The notes under the pieces: model-generated
The model's database searches: none
Seen by the model: the letters and a program-made list of their open reading frames with translations, nothing else
What the model was told of the DNA's origin: nothing
Assembly: GCF_965363235.1 (NCBI RefSeq)
Contig: NC_134846.1
Span: forward strand, 64,035,121-64,099,120
Reading direction: 5' to 3'
Source: Mytilus galloprovincialis
Taxonomy: Eukaryota > Mollusca > Bivalvia > Mytilida > Mytilidae
Length of the DNA: 64,000 nucleotides
Made by a program: the position numbers and the translations under genes
Shown: piece after piece, positions 6,401-63,206 of the stretch
Position numbering within the stretch: the stretch's first letter is position 1
Layout of the letters: the number at the start of each line of letters is the position of its first letter

Positions 6401-9400
6401 GACCAAAGTTGGCAACAATCAGAGTATCAAGTTGAAAATATGTGTGATTCTGTCTATTTACCAGCACTGTCATCATGAAGTAATAATCACCATAAATCTA
6501 GAAAAATCTTACAGATTAAAAAAGTGATTAGAAAGCCAAGGTCTATCTTCCATACATTAGATAAGAATATTCAGAAAAAATTGGTGAAAAAGTCAAGGTC
6601 TATCTATCATACATGTATGACATGAATTGACAGCTTACTTGTTGTTTAGAGTTCTTGATGATTTTTATACGACCGCAAAATTTGAAAAATTTTTCGTCGT
6701 ATATTGCTATCACGTTGGCGTCGTCGTCGTCGTCGTCGTCGTCCGAATACTTTTAGTTTTCGCACTCTAACTTTAGTAAAAGTGAATAGAAATCAATGAA
6801 ATTTTAACACAAGGTTTATGACCACAAAAGGAAGGTTGGGATTGATTTTGGGAGTTTTGGTCCCAACATTTTAGGAATTAGGGGCCAAAAAGGGCCCAAA
6901 TAAGCATTTTCTTGGTTTTCGCACTATAACTTTAGTTTAAGTGAATAGAAATCTATGAAATTTTGACACAAGGTTTATGACCACAAAAGGAAGGTTGGGA
7001 TTGATTTTGGGGGTTTTGGTTCCAACAGTTTAGGAATTAAGGGCCAAAAAAGGGCCCAAATAAGCATTATTCTTGGTTTTCGCACAATAACTTTAGTATA
7101 AGTAAATAGAAATCAATGAAATTTTAGCACAAGGTTTATGACCACAAAAGGAAGGTTGGGATTGATTTTTGGAGTTGAGGTCACAACAGTTTATGAATTA
7201 GGGGCCAAAAAGGGGCCCAAATAAGCATTATTTTTGGTTTTTGCACCATAACTTTAGTATAAGTAAATAGAAATCTATGAAATTTAAACACAAGGTTTAT
7301 GACCATAAAAGGAAGGTTGGGTTTGATTTTGGGAGTTTTGGTCCCAACAGTTTAGGAATAAGGGGCCCAAAGGGTCCAAAATTGAACTTTGTGTGATTTC
7401 ATCAAAAATTGAATAATTGGGGTTCTTTGATATGCCGAATCTAACTATGTATGTAGATTCTTAATTTTTGGTCCCGTTTTCAAATTGGTCTACATTAAGG
7501 TCCAAAGGGTCCAAAATTAAACTTAGTTTGATTTTAACAAAAATTGAATCCTTGGGGTTCTTTGATATGCTGAATTTAAAAATGTACTTAGATTTTTAAT
7601 TATTGGCTTAGTTTTCAAGTTGGTCCAAATGGGGGTCCAAAATTAAACTTTGTTTGATTTCATCAAAAATTGAATAAATGGGTTCTTTGATATGCCAAAT
7701 CTAACTGTGTATGTATATTCTTAATTTTTGGTCCAGTTTTCAAATTGGTTTACATTAAGGTCCAAAGGGTCCAAAATTAAACTAAGTTTGATTTTAACAA
7801 AAATTAAATGCTTGGGCTTATTTGATATGCTTTATCTAAATATGTACTTTGATTTTTGATTATGGGCCCAGTTTTCAAGTTAGTCCAAATCAGGATTCCA
7901 TATCAAGTATTGTGCAATAGCAAGAAATTTTCAATTGCACAGTATTGCACAATAGCAAGAAATATCTAATTGCACAATATTGTGCAATAGCAATTAATTT
8001 TCAATTGGAGTTATCTTTCTTTGTATAGAATAGTAGTTGATAATATATGTTGGAAATTTGCCAGACATGACTATGATGTCATTTTCTATTTTTATTTGCC
8101 AATAACTTTATGTAAATAACTTCATTGGAAATTTGCCAATATAAAATGTTGCTGATGAAGCTTTTTTTCCTTATCTTATCTAAAATGTTTTTAGATAATG
8201 TATGTTGGACATTTGCCAGACATGACTTTGATGTCATTTTCTATTTTTATTTGCCAATAACTTTATGTAAATAACTTCATTGAAAATTTGCCAATATAAA
8301 ATGTTGCTGATGAAGTTTTTTTTATTGTTTTATACAATAAACAATGTATATTCACTTTTACTACCAACCAATCTTTACCATTCAGTGATAACAAGCACTT
8401 TATTTTACATTTTAATATTTTATGATGTATTTAAAAGAGTAGTTATTGTTGCAAACTCCATTAGAAATTTGAATTGATATCAGTTTTGGAAAAAGGGAAA
8501 CGGGGATGTGAAAAAAAGGGGGGGGGGGTTTAAATTTTTCTCATTTCAGATTTCATAAATAAAAAGAAAATTTCTTCAAACATTTTTTTGAGAGGATTAA
8601 TATTCAACAGCATAGTGAATTGCTCAAAGGCAAAAAAAAACTTTTAAGTTCATTAGACCACATTCATTCTGTGTCAGAAACCTATGCTGTGTCAACTATT
8701 TAATTTTAGATTTAAATAAGTTTGAAGAAGAAATCTTTAATTGATTTGTAAAATCTTGACATTTGTTTTGTGTAAAAAAACCCATGTAATGTCAAAAATT
8801 TGATCACAATCCAAATTCAGAGCTGTATCACGCTTGAATGTTTTGTCCATACTTGCCCCAACTGTTCAGGGTTCGACCTCTGCGGTCGTATAAAGCTGCG
8901 CCCTGCGGAGCACCTGGTTTACAAATTTTATCCATTATATAGAATTGAGAAAGGAAATGGTGAATATGTCAAAGCGACAACCACCCGACCATAGAGCAAA
9001 CAACAGCCGAAGGCAACCAATGGGTCTTCAATGTAGCGAGAATTCCCGCACCCGTAGGTGTCCTTCAGCTGGCCCCTTAAATATGCATAATAGTACAGTG
9101 ATAATGGACGTCATACTAAACTCCGAATTATACACAAGAAACTAAAATTTAAAATCATACAAGACTAACAAAGGCCAGAGGCTCCTGACTTGGGACAGGC
9201 GCAAAATTGCGGCGGGGTTAAACATGTTTATGAGATCTCAACCCTCCCCCTATACCTCTAGCCAATGTAGAAAAGTAAAACAATAACAATACGCACATTA
9301 AAATTCAGTTCAAGAGAAGTCCGAGTCTGATGTCAAAAGATGTAACAAAAGAAAATAAATAAAATGACAATAATACATGAATAACAACAGACTACTAGCA

Positions 9401-54429: not shown

Positions 54430-55067
54430 TTATATATTGTCAGACTGAGGTAATGGATCACTGTGTTTGTCAGCTGATTGAACTTGTCTTTCAGGTTCCT
54501 CTAATTCATCATAACTTTGATGCATCCCATTACATAATTTTTGCAATGGTTTTGTCTTGTGTTGAGAGTCATATTTTAACATTCCATTTGAGATGTTTAG
54601 ATTTGCTTTACAAGATAAATTTGTCTGATCACGGAAAACACTATTCACGGGGTTGTTGATGTCTTTTGTTTCATTGTTTATTGAGCCCTCACCATTGACT
54701 AGATGTGATTTTGAATCTTCCTTTTCACCATTTACAGAAGGGAGAATTTTGGAATCATTCCTTTCATCACCATTGACTAGTTGTAATTCACAATCTTTCT
54801 TTTCACCATTTGTACAAGGGAGAGTGCTTGAATCTTTCCTTTCCTCACCATTGACAAGGTGTGATTCAGAATCTTCCTTTACATCATTTACAGAGGGGAG
54901 AGTGTTGGAATCGTTCTTTTCATCATCATTAATACTGTTCTGTGATTCATCATCTGATGAAGAAGACAATGATGATATATCAGAGTCAGAATCATCCTCC
55001 AAATCAGAATACACCTCTGCTCCAGAAAATACATATCTACTAGGAGGAAGAAATAAGTACTGTTTAC
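54430..55067 (-). CDS. SIRT1: SIRT1 last exon: ESA end, acidic tail with 26-residue repeats
   Basis: The acceptor TTTTTTCAG ends at 55068. The exon encodes [20 protein letters not shown], then [20 protein letters not shown], and stops at TAA (54430-54432). Three tandem 26-residue repeats (genomic 54685-54918) follow the pattern NDS..[20 protein letters not shown]. The antisense open frame at 54653-55093 mirrors this exon and is not a gene. Confidence 0.92.
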
Positions 55068-58000
55068 CTGAAAAAATAAGAAGAATTTGTTGAGAAATAC
55101 AATAACATCCTTGAATCTGAGAACAGTCATCAAATCAGGATGACTACTGGATTTGTGAGTTGATTTTGCATTTAACACTTAAAATTTCTTGACTAGTTGC
55201 TTATTGATTTTTTTATACAGTGATTTTATTTTTCTATTTTTTAGAAAATTAAACAAGAATGTGTCCCTAGTACACGGATGCCCCACTCGCACTATCATTT
55301 TCTATGTTCAGTGGACCGTGAAATTGGGGTAAAAACTCTAATTTGGCACTAAAATTAGAAAGATCATATCATAAGGAACATGTGTACAAAGTTTCAAGTT
55401 GATTGGACTTCAACTTCATCAAAAACTACCTTGACCAAAAACTATAACCTGAAGCGGGACGAACAGACAAAACAGACAAACAAACGGATGGACGAATCGA
55501 CATACAGACCAGAAAACATAATGCCCCTCTACTATCATAGGTGGGACATAAAAATATAAAATACAAAATCTTTTTAATTTTCATACAGTTATGCCAAAAA
55601 TGAAAGCTTTAGCATTAATTTTTTTTAATTGTTGAAAAATTCAGTATCCAGTAAGTGTGTTTATTGACAATTCCCAATCAATCAGTATGTAAAGTGAAAA
55701 AAAATCCATCTCAATTGAGGAATAATTTTATGGATGCATAATTTGATCATTTTAGCCATTTTAGGTAAATAAATACCTTCTAATCTTTTAGCAAGACTTC
55801 CATGATGACCTGATTTCCACATGTTAGTTATCTCAAAGTCTTCATCGTCATCATCATCCTCCTCTTTGGGATCATCAGACAACAGTAAACCATTCTTGTT
55901 GTTATCCACTGCTAATGCTGAATTATTCTTTGATTCACCCGACAAACAACTGTCTTTGCTATCTAGTTTAGAATTTTCAGAAGTGGTCTTACTTCTATTT
56001 TCATCTGCTACAGATCTGTCTTGAGTCTCTGATTCAGTTATTATAGAACTGGTCTCTAGAGACGTATTTCCATCAATAGTTAGACCATCTGTTTCATCAG
56101 TTTTTTGTGAAGTAATAACTGGACTAGAATCTGATTTATTTATAACAGTACAGCTTTCACTATTGTCCAACACAACACTGACCGGAATGTGTGGCTTTTT
56201 GTTATTTTTAACACTGTTATTTTCATCTATCTCATCACAAACTTTGACATGCTGTAAGTTAGACACTTCTTTGTCTGTCTTGTGATCACAGCTACTGTCA
56301 TCTGATTTACTCTCTGCACTTTTATTTTGAAGTGACCCCTGACCCTTGACATCATTGTCACTCCCACTCTCATCAAGGTCTGAAGATGTTGGTGTTTTTA
56401 GTTCACATTTTGATATTTCATGAAGTAACGGTGATCGTGATTTGTTGTCCCAATTTAAATGTTTACACAGTTCCTCCACAATAGCATCGCAATCACCAAG
56501 TAATTCAACATCAAAGTTTAAATGTTTTAGAGGTTCTCTGTTAATGAGAATCTGAGGTACATCTTCAGGCAATGAATCTGAAATACATAGAATTATTTTC
56601 ATTATTCTGTAAAGTAATAATGCAACAGGTATTGATATATAAAAAACGTCTATACTACAACTGTATAATGTTATTTCATATCAGCCGGTTACGCTTTCTG
56701 AACTCATAAACTCTGAGCAGTATTTGTTCATTCTTAATTAATTTAATTGGTTTTTGTCATCTATTGTACTGTTTGTATAGAGCAATTCAGTGTTTTTCTT
56801 GTGTACTGATTTTTGTTGTATGTTTTGTTTTGCATCTTTTATTACGTCTACTGCTTGAAATTAAACCAGGTGCTCCGCAGGGCGCAGCTTTATACGACCG
56901 CAGAGGTCGAACCCTGAACTGTTGGGGCAAGTATGGACAAAACATTCAAGCGTGATACAGCTCTGAATTTGGATTGTGATCAAATTTTTGACATTATACG
57001 GGTTTTTTACACAAAACAAATGTCAAGATTTTACAAATCAATTAAAGATTTCTTCTTCAAACTTATTTAAAATCTAAAATTAAATAGTTGACACAGCATA
57101 GGTTTCTGACACAGAATGAATGTGGTCTAATGAACTTAACATTTTTTTTTTGCCTTTGAGCAATTCACTATGCTGTTGTTTATTAATCCTCTCAAAAAAA
57201 CGTTTGAAGAAATTTTCTTTTTATTTATGAAATCTGAAATGAGAAAAATTTTACCCCCCCTTTTTTTTTCACATCCCCCTTTCCCTTTTTCCAAAACTGA
57301 TATCCATTCAAATTTCTAATGGACTTTGCAACAATAACTACTCTTAAATACATCATAAAATATTAAAATAAAGTGCTTGTTATCACTGAATGGTAAAGAT
57401 TGGTTGGTAGTAAAAGTGAATATACATTGTATATTGTATAAAACAATGATTTAAGTTGATTCAACTACTATTCTGTAAAGAAAGATAACTCCAATTGAAA
57501 ATTTCTTGCTATTGCACAATATTGTGCAATTAGATATTTCTTGCTATTGCGCAATACTGTGCAATTGAAAATTTCTTGCTATTGCACAATACTGTGCAAT
57601 TGAAGATTTCTTGTTATTGCTGAATACTGTGCAATTGAAAATTTCTTGCAATTGCACAATACTTAATATAATAATTTAGGATCCTGATTTGAACCAACTT
57701 GAAAACTGGGTCCATAATCAAAAATCTAAGTACATGTTTAGATTCAGCATATCAAAAAAGCCCAAGAATTCATTTTTTGTTAAAATCAAACAAAGTTCAA
57801 TTTTGGACCCTTTGGGCCCCTTATTCCTAAACTGTTTGGACCAAAACTCCCAAAATCAAACCCAACCTTCCTTTTATGGTCATAAACCTTGTGTTTAAAT
57901 TTCATAGATTTCTATTTACTTATACTAAAGTTATGGTGCAAAAACCAAGAATAATGCTTATTTGGGCGCCTTTTTGGCCCCTAATTCCTAAACTGTTCGG

Positions 58001-59506
58001 ACCTCAACTCCCAAAATCAATCCCAACCTTCCTTTTGTGGTCATAAACCTTGTGTTTACATTTCATTGATTTCTATTTACTTATACTAAAGTTATTGTGG
58101 GAAAACCAAGAATAATGCTTATTTGCGCCCTTTTTTGGCCAGTAATTCCTAAACTGTTGGAACCAAACATCCCAAAATCAATCCCAAGCTGCCTTTTGTG
58201 GTCATAAACCTTGTGTTAAAATTTCATAGATTTCTATTTACTTGAACTAAAGTTATAGTGCGAAAACCAAGAAAATGCTTATTTGGGTCCTTTTTGGCCC
58301 CTAATTCCTAAAATATTGGGACCAAAACTCCCAAAATCAATCCCAACCTTCCTTTTGTGGTCATAAACTTTGTGTTAAAATTTCATAGATTTCTATTCAC
58401 TTTTACTAAAGTTAGAGTGCGAAAACTAAAAGTATTCGGACGACGACAACGACGACGACAACGCAGACGACGACGCCAACATCATACCAATATACGACCA
58501 AAATATTTTCAATTTTTGCGGCCGTATAAAAAGCAGGAGAGTTTGAGACCTTATATTTCATACATCAAAGTATATCTTCATAAACATAACTCCCTTTTCT
58601 CACTTTTAGAGATGACACAACAACTTACTTGGTATAAGTGCCACTGGTCTTGGTTCGAGAGATGACACAATAACTTACTTGGTATAAGTGCCACTGGTCT
58701 CACTTTGAGAGATGACAAATACTTACTTGGTATAAGTGCCACTGGTCTCACTTTGAGAGATGACACAACAACTTACTTGGTATAAGTGCCACTGGTCTCA
58801 CTTTGAGAGATGAAAATAACTTACTTGGTATAAGTGCCACTGGTCTCACTTTGAGAGATGACACAACAACTTACTTGGTATAAGTGGCACTGATCTCACT
58901 TTGAGAGATGACACAACAACTTACTTGGTATAAGTGCCACCGGTCTAACTTTGAGATGACAAACAACTTACTAGGTATAAGTGCCACTGATCTCACTTTA
59001 AGAGATGACACAGCAGCTTACTTGGTATAAGTGCCACTAGTTTCACTTTGAGAGATGACACAACAACTAACTTGGTATAAGTGCCACTGGTCTCACTTTG
59101 AGAGATGACACAACAACTAACTTGGTATAAGTGCCACTGGTCTAACTTTGAGAGATGACACAACAACTAACTTGGTATAAGTGCCACTGGTCTAACTTTG
59201 AGAGATGACACAACAACTAACTTGGTATAAGTGCCACTGGTCTCATTTTGAGAGATGACACAACAACTTACTTGGTAAAAGTGTCACTGGTCTCACTTTG
59301 AGAGATGAAAATAACTTACTTGGTATAAGTGCCACTGGTCTCACTTTGAGAGATGATCCAATCACAATAAGTAGATCACATTTGTCTTTATCTTCGGTCA
59401 TTTGTTTGTGGAACTCATCAGACAAACTTTCACCAAAAAACACTATGTCTGGTTTCATTATTGATGTTGGACTGTCTGGAGGGCACACTGGACATTTGGG
59501 TATAAC
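54430..59506 (-). CDS. SIRT1: SIRT1, NAD-dependent protein deacetylase (last three exons; 5' part beyond window)
   Basis: Exons in gene order are 59506-59320, 56577-55777 and 55067-54430 (541 codons plus stop). The first carries KCPVC (a zinc-ligand CxxC), [11 protein letters not shown] and [18 protein letters not shown]. The second opens [38 protein letters not shown]. These are the C-terminal half of the sirtuin core, with the NAD-binding GSSL and NREP motifs intact. SLAKRLEG, continued by [20 protein letters not shown], matches the vertebrate ESA segment needed for full activity. SIRT1 is a largely nuclear deacetylase of histones and transcription factors. The tail is about 180 residues longer than in mammals because of acidic Ser-rich linkers. 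The core exon is followed by a minisatellite of its own end. Confidence 0.95.
54685..54918 (-). repeat. 78-bp coding tandem repeat x 3 in SIRT1 last exon
   Basis: Three consecutive 26-residue units share DS..LP..N..K.D...HLVNGE. The units are diverged but in frame. This is a separate expansion from the intronic array of the same gene. Confidence 0.85.
55254..55549. mobile_element. CAAGAATGTGTCC short element, copy R1 (about 296 bp)
   Basis: Starts CAAGAATGTGTCCCTAGTAC and contains ATGCCCCACTCGCACTATCA, GTGGACCGTGAAATTGGGG, CCTGAAGCGGGACG, a GACRGAC-type microsatellite and a terminal hairpin ATGCCCCTCTAC..GTGGGACAT. It sits in the last SIRT1 intron. A close copy, R2, lies at 61147-61437. Confidence 0.8.
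55777..56577 (-). CDS. SIRT1: SIRT1 exon: end of core plus acidic linker (801 nt)
   Basis: The acceptor TGTATTTCAG precedes base 56577; the donor GTATTT begins at 55776. After the last core helix ([11 protein letters not shown]) comes about 190 residues rich in Ser, Asp, Glu and Lys (for example [17 protein letters not shown]), a poly-acidic [12 protein letters not shown], and then the ESA start [14 protein letters not shown]. The split Gly codon G/GT links it to the last exon. Confidence 0.92.
56865..58530 (-). mobile_element. TTTATACGACCGC element, copy E2 (about 1.67 kb)
   Basis: In the plus sense it runs from ACCAGGTGCTCCGCAGGG and TTTATACGACCGC at the left to GCGGCCGTATAAA at 58530. It has the same modules as E1 in reverse order: unique segment, TTGCACAATATTGTGCAA block, a reduced 127-bp block, four 160-bp units, and a (GAC)n microsatellite. 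It lies in the SIRT1 intron directly downstream of the splice-site minisatellite. Confidence 0.85.
58598..59356 (-). repeat. Minisatellite made from a SIRT1 exon end plus its 5' splice site (15 units)
   Basis: Fifteen head-to-tail units of 47-50 bp. In the minus sense each reads CATCTCTCAAAGTGAGACC, AGTGGCACTTATACCAA, then GTAAGTTGTTGTGT. The unit nearest the exon (GGTATA at 59322) is the authentic exon end. Others start at 59274, 59224, 59174, 59124, 59074, 59024, 58974, 58927, 58877, 58827, 58779, 58729, 58681 and 58631. All keep GT. Four adjacent units (59224-59074) share GTTAGT, one has GTAAGC, one has CTA before the GT, and the rest keep GTAAGT. Spacing is mostly 50 bp with 47-48 bp variants. 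Confidence 0.95.
59320..59506 (-). CDS. SIRT1: SIRT1 core exon (62 codons + 1 nt)
   Basis: The acceptor TTGTTTAG precedes GTTATACCC at 59506 (phase 0). The donor GTAAGT occupies 59319-59314. The last base (A) joins AT of the next exon to make Asn. The final 37 bases are the founder unit of the repeat array that follows in the intron. Confidence 0.92.
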
Positions 59507-60119: not shown

Positions 60120-60913
60120 ACCAGATGCTCTGCATGGTGCAGCTTTATACGACAGCAGAGGTTGAACCCTGAACGGTTGGGGCAAGTATGGACACAACAT
60201 TCAAGCTGGATTTAGCTCTAAATTTGGATTGTGATTAAAAAGTTGACACAGCATAGGTTTCTGACACATAATGAATGTGGTCTAATGAACTTAAAATTTT
60301 TTTTTGCCTTTGAGCAATTCACTATGCTGTTGAATATTAATCCTCTCAAAAAAATGTTTGAAGAAATTTTCTTTTTATTTATGAAATCTGAAATGGAAAA
60401 AAAATTGAACCCCCCCCCCCCCCAATTTTTTTTTCACATCCCCTTTCCCTTATTCCAAAACTGATCTCAATTCAAATTTCTAATGGAGTTTGCAACAATA
60501 ACTACTCATTTAAATACATATTTAAATGTGAAAAAAATGCTTATTATCACTGAATGGTAAAGATTGTTTTAATTTATCAGTTGGTAGTAAAAGTGAATAT
60601 ACATTGTATATTGTATAAAGCAATGATTTAAGTTGATTCAACTACTATTCTGGATAAAGAAAGATAACTCCAATTGAAAATATGAAAATTTCTTGTTATT
60701 GCACAATATTGTGCAATTAGATATTTCTTGCTATTGCACAATACTATGCAATTGAAAATATTTGCTATTGCACAATACTGTGCAATTGAAGATTTCTTGC
60801 TATGGTGCAATACTGTGCAATTGAAGATTTCTTGCTTCTTGCTATTGCACAATACTTAATATAATAATTTTGGATCCTGATTTGGACCAACTTGAAAACT
60901 AGGCCAATTATCA
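60120..60913 (-). mobile_element. TTTATACGACCGC element, copy E3, left part
   Basis: Starts ACCAGATGCTCTGCATGG and proceeds through the unique segment (with a C14 tract at 60410-60423) and the TTGCACAATATTGTGCAA block to ACTAGGCCAATTATCA. There it is interrupted by E4. Its sequence resumes at 63207 with AATCTAAGTACATGTTTAG. Confidence 0.82.
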
Positions 60914-63206
60914 ACCAGATGCTCCGCAGGGCGTAGCTTTATACGACCGCAGAGGTTGAACCCTGAACGGTTGGGGCAAGTATGGACACAACATTCAAGC
61001 TGGATTCAGCTCTAAATTTGGATTGTGATTAAATAGTTGACACAGCATAGGTTTCTGACACAGAATGAATGTGTTCTAATGAACTTAAAATTTTTGTTTT
61101 CTCTTAGAGCAATTCACTATGCTGTTGAATATTAATCCTCTCAAAACAAGAATGTGTCCTCAGTACACGAATGCCCCACTCGCACTATCATTTTCCATGT
61201 TCAGTGGACCGTGAAATTGGGGTAAAAACTCTAATTTGGCATTAAAATTAGAAAGATCATATCATAGGGGACATTTGTACTAAGTTTGAAGTCGATTGGA
61301 CTTAAACTTCATCAAAAACTACCTTGACCAAAAACTTTAACCTGAAGCGGGACAGACGGATGGACGAACGGACGGACGAACGGACGGACGCACAGACCAG
61401 AAAACATAATGCCCCTCTACTATCGTAGGTGGGGCATAAAAATGTTTGAAGAAATTTTCTTTTTTATTTATGAAATTTCAAATGAGAAAAATTGAACCCA
61501 ATTTTTTTAATCACATCCCCCTTTCCCTTATTCCAAAACTAATCTCAATTAAAATTTCTAATGGAGTTTGCAACAATAACTACTCATTTAAATACATCAT
61601 AAAATATTAAGATGTAAAAAAAAACTGCTTGTTATCACTGAATGTTATTTATTATAATTTATCAGTTGGTAGTAAAAAGTGAATATACATTGTATATTGT
61701 ATATAACAAAGATTTAAGTTGATTCTGGACAAAGAAAGATAACTCCAATTAAAAAAAAATCTTGCTATTGCACAATATTTTGCAATTAGATATTTCTTGC
61801 TTACTATTCTGGACAAAGAAAGATAACTCTAATTAAAAAAAAATTTGCTATTTCACAATATTGTGCAATTAGATATTTCTTGCCATTGCGCAATACTGTG
61901 CAATTGAAAAGACTTGCTATTGCACAATACTTAATATAATAATTTTAGATCCTGATTTGGACCAACTTGAAAACTGGGCCCATAATAAAAAATCTAAGTA
62001 CATTTTTGGATTCAGCATATCAAAGAACCCCAAGATTTCAACTTTTGTTGAAATCAGACTAAGTTTAATTTTGGACCCTTTGGACTTTAGTGTAGACCAA
62101 TTTGAAAACAGGACCAAAAATGAAGAATCTACATACACAGTTAGATTTGGTATATCAAAGAACCCCATTTATTCAATTTTTGATGAAATCAAACAAAGTT
62201 TAATTTTGGACCCCGATTTGGACCAACTTGAAAACTGGGCCAATAATCAAGAATCTAAGTACATTTTTAGATTCAGCATATAAAAGAACCTAACTGATTC
62301 ATTTTTTGTCAAAATAAAACTAAGTTTAATTTTGGACCCTTTGGACCTTAATGTAGACCAATTTGAAAACGGGACCAAAAGTTAAGAATCTACATACACA
62401 GTCATGACAGTTAGATTCGGCATATCAAAGAACCCCAATTATTCAATTTTGATGAAATCAAACAAAGTTTAATTTTGGACCCTTTGGGCCCCTTATTCTG
62501 TTGGGACCAAAACTCCCAAAATCAATACCAACCTTCCTTTTATGGTCATAAACCTTGTGTTTAAATTTCATAGATTTCTATTTACTTATACTAACGTTAT
62601 GGTGCGAAAACCAAGAAAAATGCTTATTTGGGTCCCTTTTTGGCCCCTAATTCCTAAACTGTTGGGACCTAAACTCCCAAAATCAATACCAACCTTCCTT
62701 TTGTAGTCATTAACTTTGTGTTTAAATTTCATTGATTTCTATTTACTTAAACTAAAGTTATTGTGCGAAAACCAAGAATAATGCTTATTTGGGCCCTTTT
62801 TTGGCCCCTAATTCCTAAACTGTTGAAACCTAAACTCCCAAAATCAATCCCAACCGTTCTTTTGTGGTCATAAACCTTGTGTCAAAATTTCATAGATTTC
62901 TATTAACTTAAACTAAAGTTATAGTGCGAAAACCAAGAAAATGCTTATTTGGGCCCTTTTTGGCCCCTAATTCCTAAAATGTTGGGACCAAAACTCCCAA
63001 AATCAATACCAACCTTCCTTTTGTGGTCATAAACCTTGTGTTAAAATTTCATAGATTTCCATTCACTTTTACTAAAGTTAGAGTGCGAAAACTAAAAGTA
63101 TTCGGACGCCGGACGACGACGACGATGACGACGACGACGACGACGCCGACGCCAACGTGATAGCAATATACGACGAAAAATTTTTCAAATTTTGCGGTCG
63201 TATAAA
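60914..63206 (-). mobile_element. TTTATACGACCGC element, copy E4 (full length, nested in E3)
   Basis: Runs from ACCAGATGCTCCGCAGGG to GCGGTCGTATAAA with all modules, including the 127-bp and 160-bp tandem blocks and a (GAC)n tract at 63104-63153. The R2 element (61147-61437) is inserted in its unique segment. Flanks on both sides are E3 sequence, so E4 is the younger. It is non-coding. Confidence 0.85.
61147..61437. mobile_element. CAAGAATGTGTCC short element, copy R2
   Basis: A close copy of R1 (55254-55549). It splits the CTCTCAAAA..AAATGTTTGAAG sequence that is intact in E2, E3 and E5, so the insertion point is exact to within an A-run. The internal GACGGACGAACG tract is longer than in R1. 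The 3' hairpin ATGCCCCTCTAC / GTAGGTGGGGCAT is perfect in its outer seven pairs. Confidence 0.85.

Follow-up and report, generated by a model that had tools for sequence, protein, structure and literature searches.

The 5' splice site that closes a conserved catalytic exon of SIRT1 in Mytilus galloprovincialis has been multiplied into a minisatellite, a head-to-tail array of 15 units that stands at the start of the following intron and repeats the exon end together with its donor. We think it probable, at about 0.68 and judging from sequence, that this array is a young tandem duplication that arose locally across the exon-intron junction and is tolerated, with the exon-proximal donor mostly used and perhaps some leakage to decay-bound transcripts. 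The SIRT1 array appears to be one of a class: in other genes of this genome, too, minisatellites seem to have arisen from the gene's own 5' splice site.

The SIRT1 gene and the layout of its array

A preliminary description, made from the letters of the window (here the whole 64,000-nucleotide stretch of DNA analysed), had read 15 repeats over the end of a SIRT1 exon, and both the array and the identity of the gene bear this out (Table 1). TRF reports a period of 50, 15.4 copies, 91% matches and a score of 1252, and alignment of the units places 15 of them head to tail. In this one assembly, each unit consists of the last 37 bases of the exon, the donor and 11-13 intronic bases, close to the 37 and about 12 first proposed. 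Most units are 50 bases long, with an intronic part of 13 bases; units 2, 12 and 14 have 48 bases, 11 of them intronic, and unit 9 has 47, 12 of them intronic. GT is kept in 15/15 units and the full GTAAGT in 10/15, as had been said of all units and of most; GTTAGT takes its place at donors 3-6 (4/15) and GTAAGC at donor 7 (1/15). Every unit also holds, beside its one donor, a CTCTCAAAG stretch ending in AG, an observation that bears on intron gain by tandem duplication, in which the copied piece would have to provide the GT as well as the AG of a new, spliced intron. With local, repeated head-to-tail units that fall within the range of about 10-100 bases, the array is a minisatellite, and it belongs at an exon-intron boundary in the strict sense that, in all 15 cases, the unit takes in both the end of the exon and the donor that follows it.

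Table 1. Features of the SIRT1 array and the gene around it, in positions of the window
Feature	Position	Strand	Donor G	Description
SIRT1 catalytic exon	59320..59506	minus		62 codons and one base, ending CCA A; open frame after TTTAG
SIRT1 intron	56578..59319	minus		2,742 bases, array at its start
Next SIRT1 exon (start and open frame)	55682..56577	minus		Starts at 56577 after TTTCAG; frame open until the stop at 55682
Donor array	58598..59356	minus		15 units in direct succession, each of 50, 48 or 47 bases, then a partial 16th (TRF, unit alignment)
Donor 1, GTAAGT	59314..59319	minus	59319	Founder; presumed regular 5' splice site of SIRT1 (phase 1), predicted from the join to 56577
Donor 2, GTAAGT	59266..59271	minus	59271	Would add 48 bases, with the frame kept and open
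Donors 3-6, all GTTAGT	59066..59221	minus	59221, 59171, 59121, 59071	Weak U1 pairing; predicted use leads to a stop
Donor 7, GTAAGC	59016..59021	minus	59021	Predicted use leads to a stop
Donors 8-15, all GTAAGT	58623..58971	minus	58971, 58924, 58874, 58824, 58776, 58726, 58678, 58628	Predicted use leads to the stop common to donors 3-15; predicted U1 pairing strongest at donor 13
Partial 16th copy	58598..58615	minus		Copies the first 18 bases of the exonic part with one mismatch; closes the array

The gene was assigned to SIRT1 by a core closest to SIRT1 and by neighbouring SIRT1 exons in order. Read from 59506 to 59320, the exon matches human SIRT1 (4if6) over 62 aa with an E value of 3.2e-25, aligned to its end VALIP (phmmer), and upstream beyond the window the same strand carries, in order, frames with GAGVS, PDFRSRDGIYARL and TQNIDTLEQ. 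Judged from the exons that were located, the SIRT1 gene looks intact. Two further kinds of repeat were seen in the window. A 78-base repeat of 3.1 copies (TRF) at 54689-54930 lies inside a minus-strand open frame of 234 codons (54430-55134) and may be a repeat that is translated within the C-terminal part of SIRT1. Tandem repeats of 161, 135 and 35 bases, grouped in sets at 57492-58426, 60683-63092 and 6756-8007, occur in both orientations and look like one composite dispersed element (TRF).

What use of each donor would mean

When the predicted splice forms are translated, donor 1 joined to 56577 gives a continuous SIRT1 reading in phase 1; donor 2 inserts 16 residues and is, among the 15, the only donor with an in-frame, stop-free extension; and donors 3-15 (13/15) all run into one common stop, which lies in unit 3 and ends the frame after 87 residues. 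Transcripts with premature stops are, as a general rule, lost to nonsense-mediated decay. The 14 donors beyond the first could be pictured as competing decoys, with donor 2 giving the 16-residue insert and donors 3-15 a message that stops and is lost. We think it likely, reading from the exon and its conservation, that donor 1 is the one used, with some leakage to the others, because the unchanged conserved core comes only from donor 1. The net state would be a minisatellite that is largely tolerated, perhaps at a small cost to SIRT1 output that depends on copy number.

Two properties of the sites count against main use of donor 1, since neither favours it. The U1 duplex energy is -5.6 for 9/15 donors, donor 1 included, -1.7 for four, -4.5 for one and -7.5 for donor 13, and in predicted local folding the accessibility of donor 1 is 0.018, below that of 13 of the 14 other donors. 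The 15 sites had at first been called equivalent, a description that has to be given up: five are weaker than the common value and one is stronger, and the predicted consequences of their use differ as well. In DOK7, the choice among nearby 5' sites is reported to be able to go to the intron-proximal one (PMC5585400), and a preference of that type would predict that the distal donors of the SIRT1 array are heavily used.

It is also possible, if improbable in our judgement, that the array works as a splicing rheostat, in which several donors are used, the 16-residue and decay-bound forms tune SIRT1 and copy number sets the level. The retention of GT in every unit and of GTAAGT in 10/15 would suit such a function, as would the open, in-frame form from donor 2 and the 31-bp VNTR of human CBS, where more repeats are reported to go with lower activity and higher homocysteine (PMC5188458). 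If the donors were held by selection, however, one might expect them to change less than their surroundings, and they do not: 6/112 donor cells have changed against 17/488 cells in the rest of the unit (Fisher p 0.41), and at the observed rate the chance that all 28 GT cells remain unchanged is 0.37. Donor bases have changed about as often as the rest, so retention of GT needs no selection, and we see no sign of selection preserving the donors. Nor do the other arrays of the genome speak for a rheostat, as the periods of those judged exon-founded are not clearly in frame and the next well-formed donor yields an in-frame open form in only 5/19 of them (see below). Tolerance of a young duplication, with donor 1 mostly used, remains our preferred reading.

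Probable origin in place, and known precedents

Unit 1, the exon-proximal unit, is the sole one that runs on into the remainder of the exon, and compared with it the other 14 units differ at 18/516 exonic cells, 5/14 being identical over all 37 exonic bases, which agrees with its proposed role as founder. The array DNA has one matching place in the 1.385 Gb assembly, in a search that omits very common words; the 36-base unit pattern, allowing up to three mismatches, has 11 matches genome-wide, none of them outside the array; and the exon is matched in full at one place only. Neither a second SIRT1 copy nor an uncollapsed array-free allele was found in the assembly at E up to 0.01, where the one further match to the exon, on contig 7, is a stretch with 50% identity. 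Because there is one locus, with few changes relative to unit 1 and with unit 1 continuing into the exon, the array was most likely formed locally and not long ago from SIRT1's own exon. The earlier proposal of a repeat born across the junction fits the units, all of which hold an exonic part, a donor and intronic bases. The last 37 exon bases and 11-13 intronic bases would first have been doubled head to tail by a local tandem duplication, which then grew, through slippage or unequal exchange as we suppose, to about 15 copies within the intron. The order of variants is the trace that one expects from either process: the four GTTAGT donors are consecutive, unit 4 equals unit 5, and unit 11 equals unit 13.

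The copy number comes from one assembly, and a small repeat might in principle have been expanded by mis-assembly. We regard this as very unlikely, considering that the units differ in an ordered fashion (four GTTAGT donors in a row, 48 bases in units 2, 12 and 14, 47 in one) and that arrays with unrelated units also stand behind other exon-like stretches. Less credible still is a dispersed satellite or mobile element inserted at the exon end; other tandem repeats, with units of 161, 135 and 35 bases, do occur in the intron and its neighbourhood, but the unit is SIRT1 coding sequence, and the check for a transposed satellite, for which the preliminary description had asked, came out in favour of a local origin, with array, unit pattern and exon each at one place and no copies elsewhere in the assembly as searched without very common words. 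That the array is itself coding, one long exon with its true donor in the last unit, is scarcely tenable: the frame is open through unit 2, and another array, L060, is open over 285 bases, but the stop in unit 3, alike for donors 3-15, refutes this reading for SIRT1, provided that the assembly is correct.

Arrays of this kind have precedents. Each repeat of the CBS 31-bp VNTR carries a donor. That VNTR, at the boundary of exon 13 and intron 13, is the closest precedent that we met, being like the SIRT1 array a minisatellite at an exon-intron boundary; it lies in another gene and is described as non-coding sequence (PMC5188458), whereas the founder of the SIRT1 array is a conserved catalytic exon. 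Unlike the CBS repeat, the SIRT1 array also seems to have counterparts at further exons of its genome. Tandem repeats at exon-intron boundaries in human segmental duplications are reported to alter splicing, with 27 intron modifications (PMC2812944); these belong to recent primate paralogues, the variable ones averaging four 30-bp units, as against 15 units of about 50 bases in an apparently single-copy gene here. In CBS 844ins68, a tandem duplication over a splice junction produces duplicate splice sites (PMC2630376), and in a potato RdRp gene an intron was gained by tandem duplication across a junction (PMC4974935). Both resemble the SIRT1 case as junction-spanning duplications with which splicing copes or from which a new intron arises, and both are single duplications at an intron-exon (acceptor-side) junction, in contrast to a long array of donors. 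The 844ins68 text itself mentions two donor sites, and a title among its references a 3' site (PMC2630376). Among the literature matches listed, judged by titles and abstract openings, none described the SIRT1 array or, for a mollusc, a group of arrays founded on donors. We conclude that the SIRT1 array belongs to a kind already known; undescribed, among the papers listed, are its copy number, its place at a conserved catalytic exon and the apparent class within one genome.

Donor arrays elsewhere in the genome

The array had been called unusual, but arrays similar to it do not look rare in this genome. Minisatellites are common in this genome, given that 20 stretches of 10 kb, taken at hand-chosen positions from contigs 1 to 11 and amounting to 197.5 kb of known bases, contain six arrays with units of at least 20 bases and at least 10 copies, or seven if the adjoining L019 pair is split, with two arrays cut by the end of a stretch and arrays merged by hand. 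One stretch (L010, G000:C2:5000000-5009999) holds a 6-kb array of 176/346-base units that reaches its end. Two genome-wide scans looked for repeated donors. Three AGGTAAGT motifs with starts 28-58 bases apart were found at 627 places (331 and 296), against 448 (326 and 122) for the reversed motif, and the 100 of the 627 matches that were listed group into 17 arrays. Three CAGGTAAGT motifs were found at 103 places, of which the 100 listed group into 21 arrays, three of them already in the first scan. Beyond the spacing limits of the scans, about 40 CAGGTAAGT motifs spaced mostly by 78 bases lie at G000:C1:7066749-7069966 (minus strand).

The 5' flanks of the 35 other arrays among the matches listed in both scans were then judged for exons. 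By eye and unblinded, 19/35 arrays were judged to start on exon ends, recognized by a plausible peptide that runs to the first donor, together with either a long open frame or a stretch resembling an acceptor, the array start being unreached in 3/35 (L028, L042, L059); L037 and L047 are further possible first exons outside the 19. Homology with E below 1e-4 was found for 9 of the 19: a P5A-type ATPase (L035, 1.9e-11), FLVCR1 (L036, 7.7e-5), BONZAI 1, presumably a copine (L029, 2.7e-5, without any single significant stretch), UBR4 (L038, 9e-10), TSP_1 (L046, 5.1e-13), SID-1 (L054, 5.2e-10), an FRB domain (L060, 8.9e-5, under its curated cut-off), a TRP channel (L056, 1.4e-17) and a 'helicase-like protein' that we take to be Mot1/BTAF1 (L058, 4e-18). 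L051, too short for Pfam, seems to us to resemble a CAMKK kinase; L040 had no homology match, and eight others gave nothing convincing in Pfam, L031 showing a weak coiled-coil match (0.006). The L060 array (G000:C9:94372181-94372881), open over its 285 bases in the frame of the exon with the weak FRB-domain match, could be a coding repeat. At L033 (G000:C1:118398076-118399276), the unit is a T-rich stretch ending in CAG with GTAAGT immediately after it, which brings an acceptor-like sequence into direct contact with a donor, in the manner of a recursive splice point. Sites with AGGTAAGT at L064, L067, L068, L072 and L080, and at about 1182 (plus strand) and 732 (minus strand) of the window, share similar upstream sequence and look like members of one dispersed family of repeats that brings its own donor.

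One might ask whether 5' splice sites are preferred by minisatellites as such. Among CAGGTAAGT arrays, including two whose start was not reached, 12/21 were judged exon-founded, as were 4/20 isolated CAGGTAAGT sites, the first 20 listed on contig 1 (p 0.025); p becomes 0.21 if the doubtful isolated sites L077, L078 and L079 count as exons, and 0.045 if those two arrays are left out along with five isolated sites that belong to a single repeat family. With an automatic exon score, trained on 538 codons of the window and negative for strong-homology exons such as that of L056, 12/35 arrays pass the 95% background cut against 2/30 non-array motifs (p 0.013), the latter made up of isolated sites (1/20 passing) and of AGGTAAGT sites from the sampled stretches, the window and L003-L005 (1/10 passing); at the 99% cut the counts are 7/35 and 1/30 (p 0.06). 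The two judgements overlap in part: 9/12 passing arrays are within the 19, with L030, L037 and L047 outside, and 10/19 arrays judged exon-founded fail the score. By places, there is no enrichment genome-wide either of three CAGGTAAGT motifs (103 against 105 for the reversed motif) or of the single motif (10,610 against 10,824). Distinct arrays among the matches listed number 21 against 11 reversed (p 0.11), and with 3/103 and 5/105 places unlisted the true counts could be 21-24 and 11-16, with extreme p values of 0.04 to 0.51. We take a donor preference of minisatellites as suggestive only. The bolder idea, that 5' splice sites are hot spots of minisatellite birth here and that many genes carry private donor batteries whose copy number tunes loss by decay, seems to us doubtful.

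Whether arrays are selected to keep frame can be asked of the same loci. An early contrast, in which 7/9 exon-founded arrays of a first set had a frame-keeping unit length against 0/8 of the others, faded as arrays were added: with hand-counted periods, 10/20 arrays judged exon-founded, SIRT1 included, have a period divisible by three (p 0.09), or 9/20 (p 0.19) unless the first step of 41 in L036 is counted as 42. When units with damaged donors are skipped, the next well-formed donor gives an insert that is a multiple of three in 9/19 arrays, and one that is open as well in the 5/19 mentioned above. There is no firm sign of frame selection on arrays.

These loci offer natural series of tandem donors, graded in strength as well as number, both in SIRT1 and in other conserved genes identified by homology, among them those for a TRP channel, a UBR4-like ligase, a P5A-type ATPase and an FLVCR-like transporter. 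How the spliceosome chooses among near-identical 5' splice sites is a long-standing question, and it becomes directly testable within one genome. If minisatellites prefer splice junctions, this would be a new mutational bias, and should the downstream donors leak, the number of copies would set the output of the genes that carry them in a heritable way.
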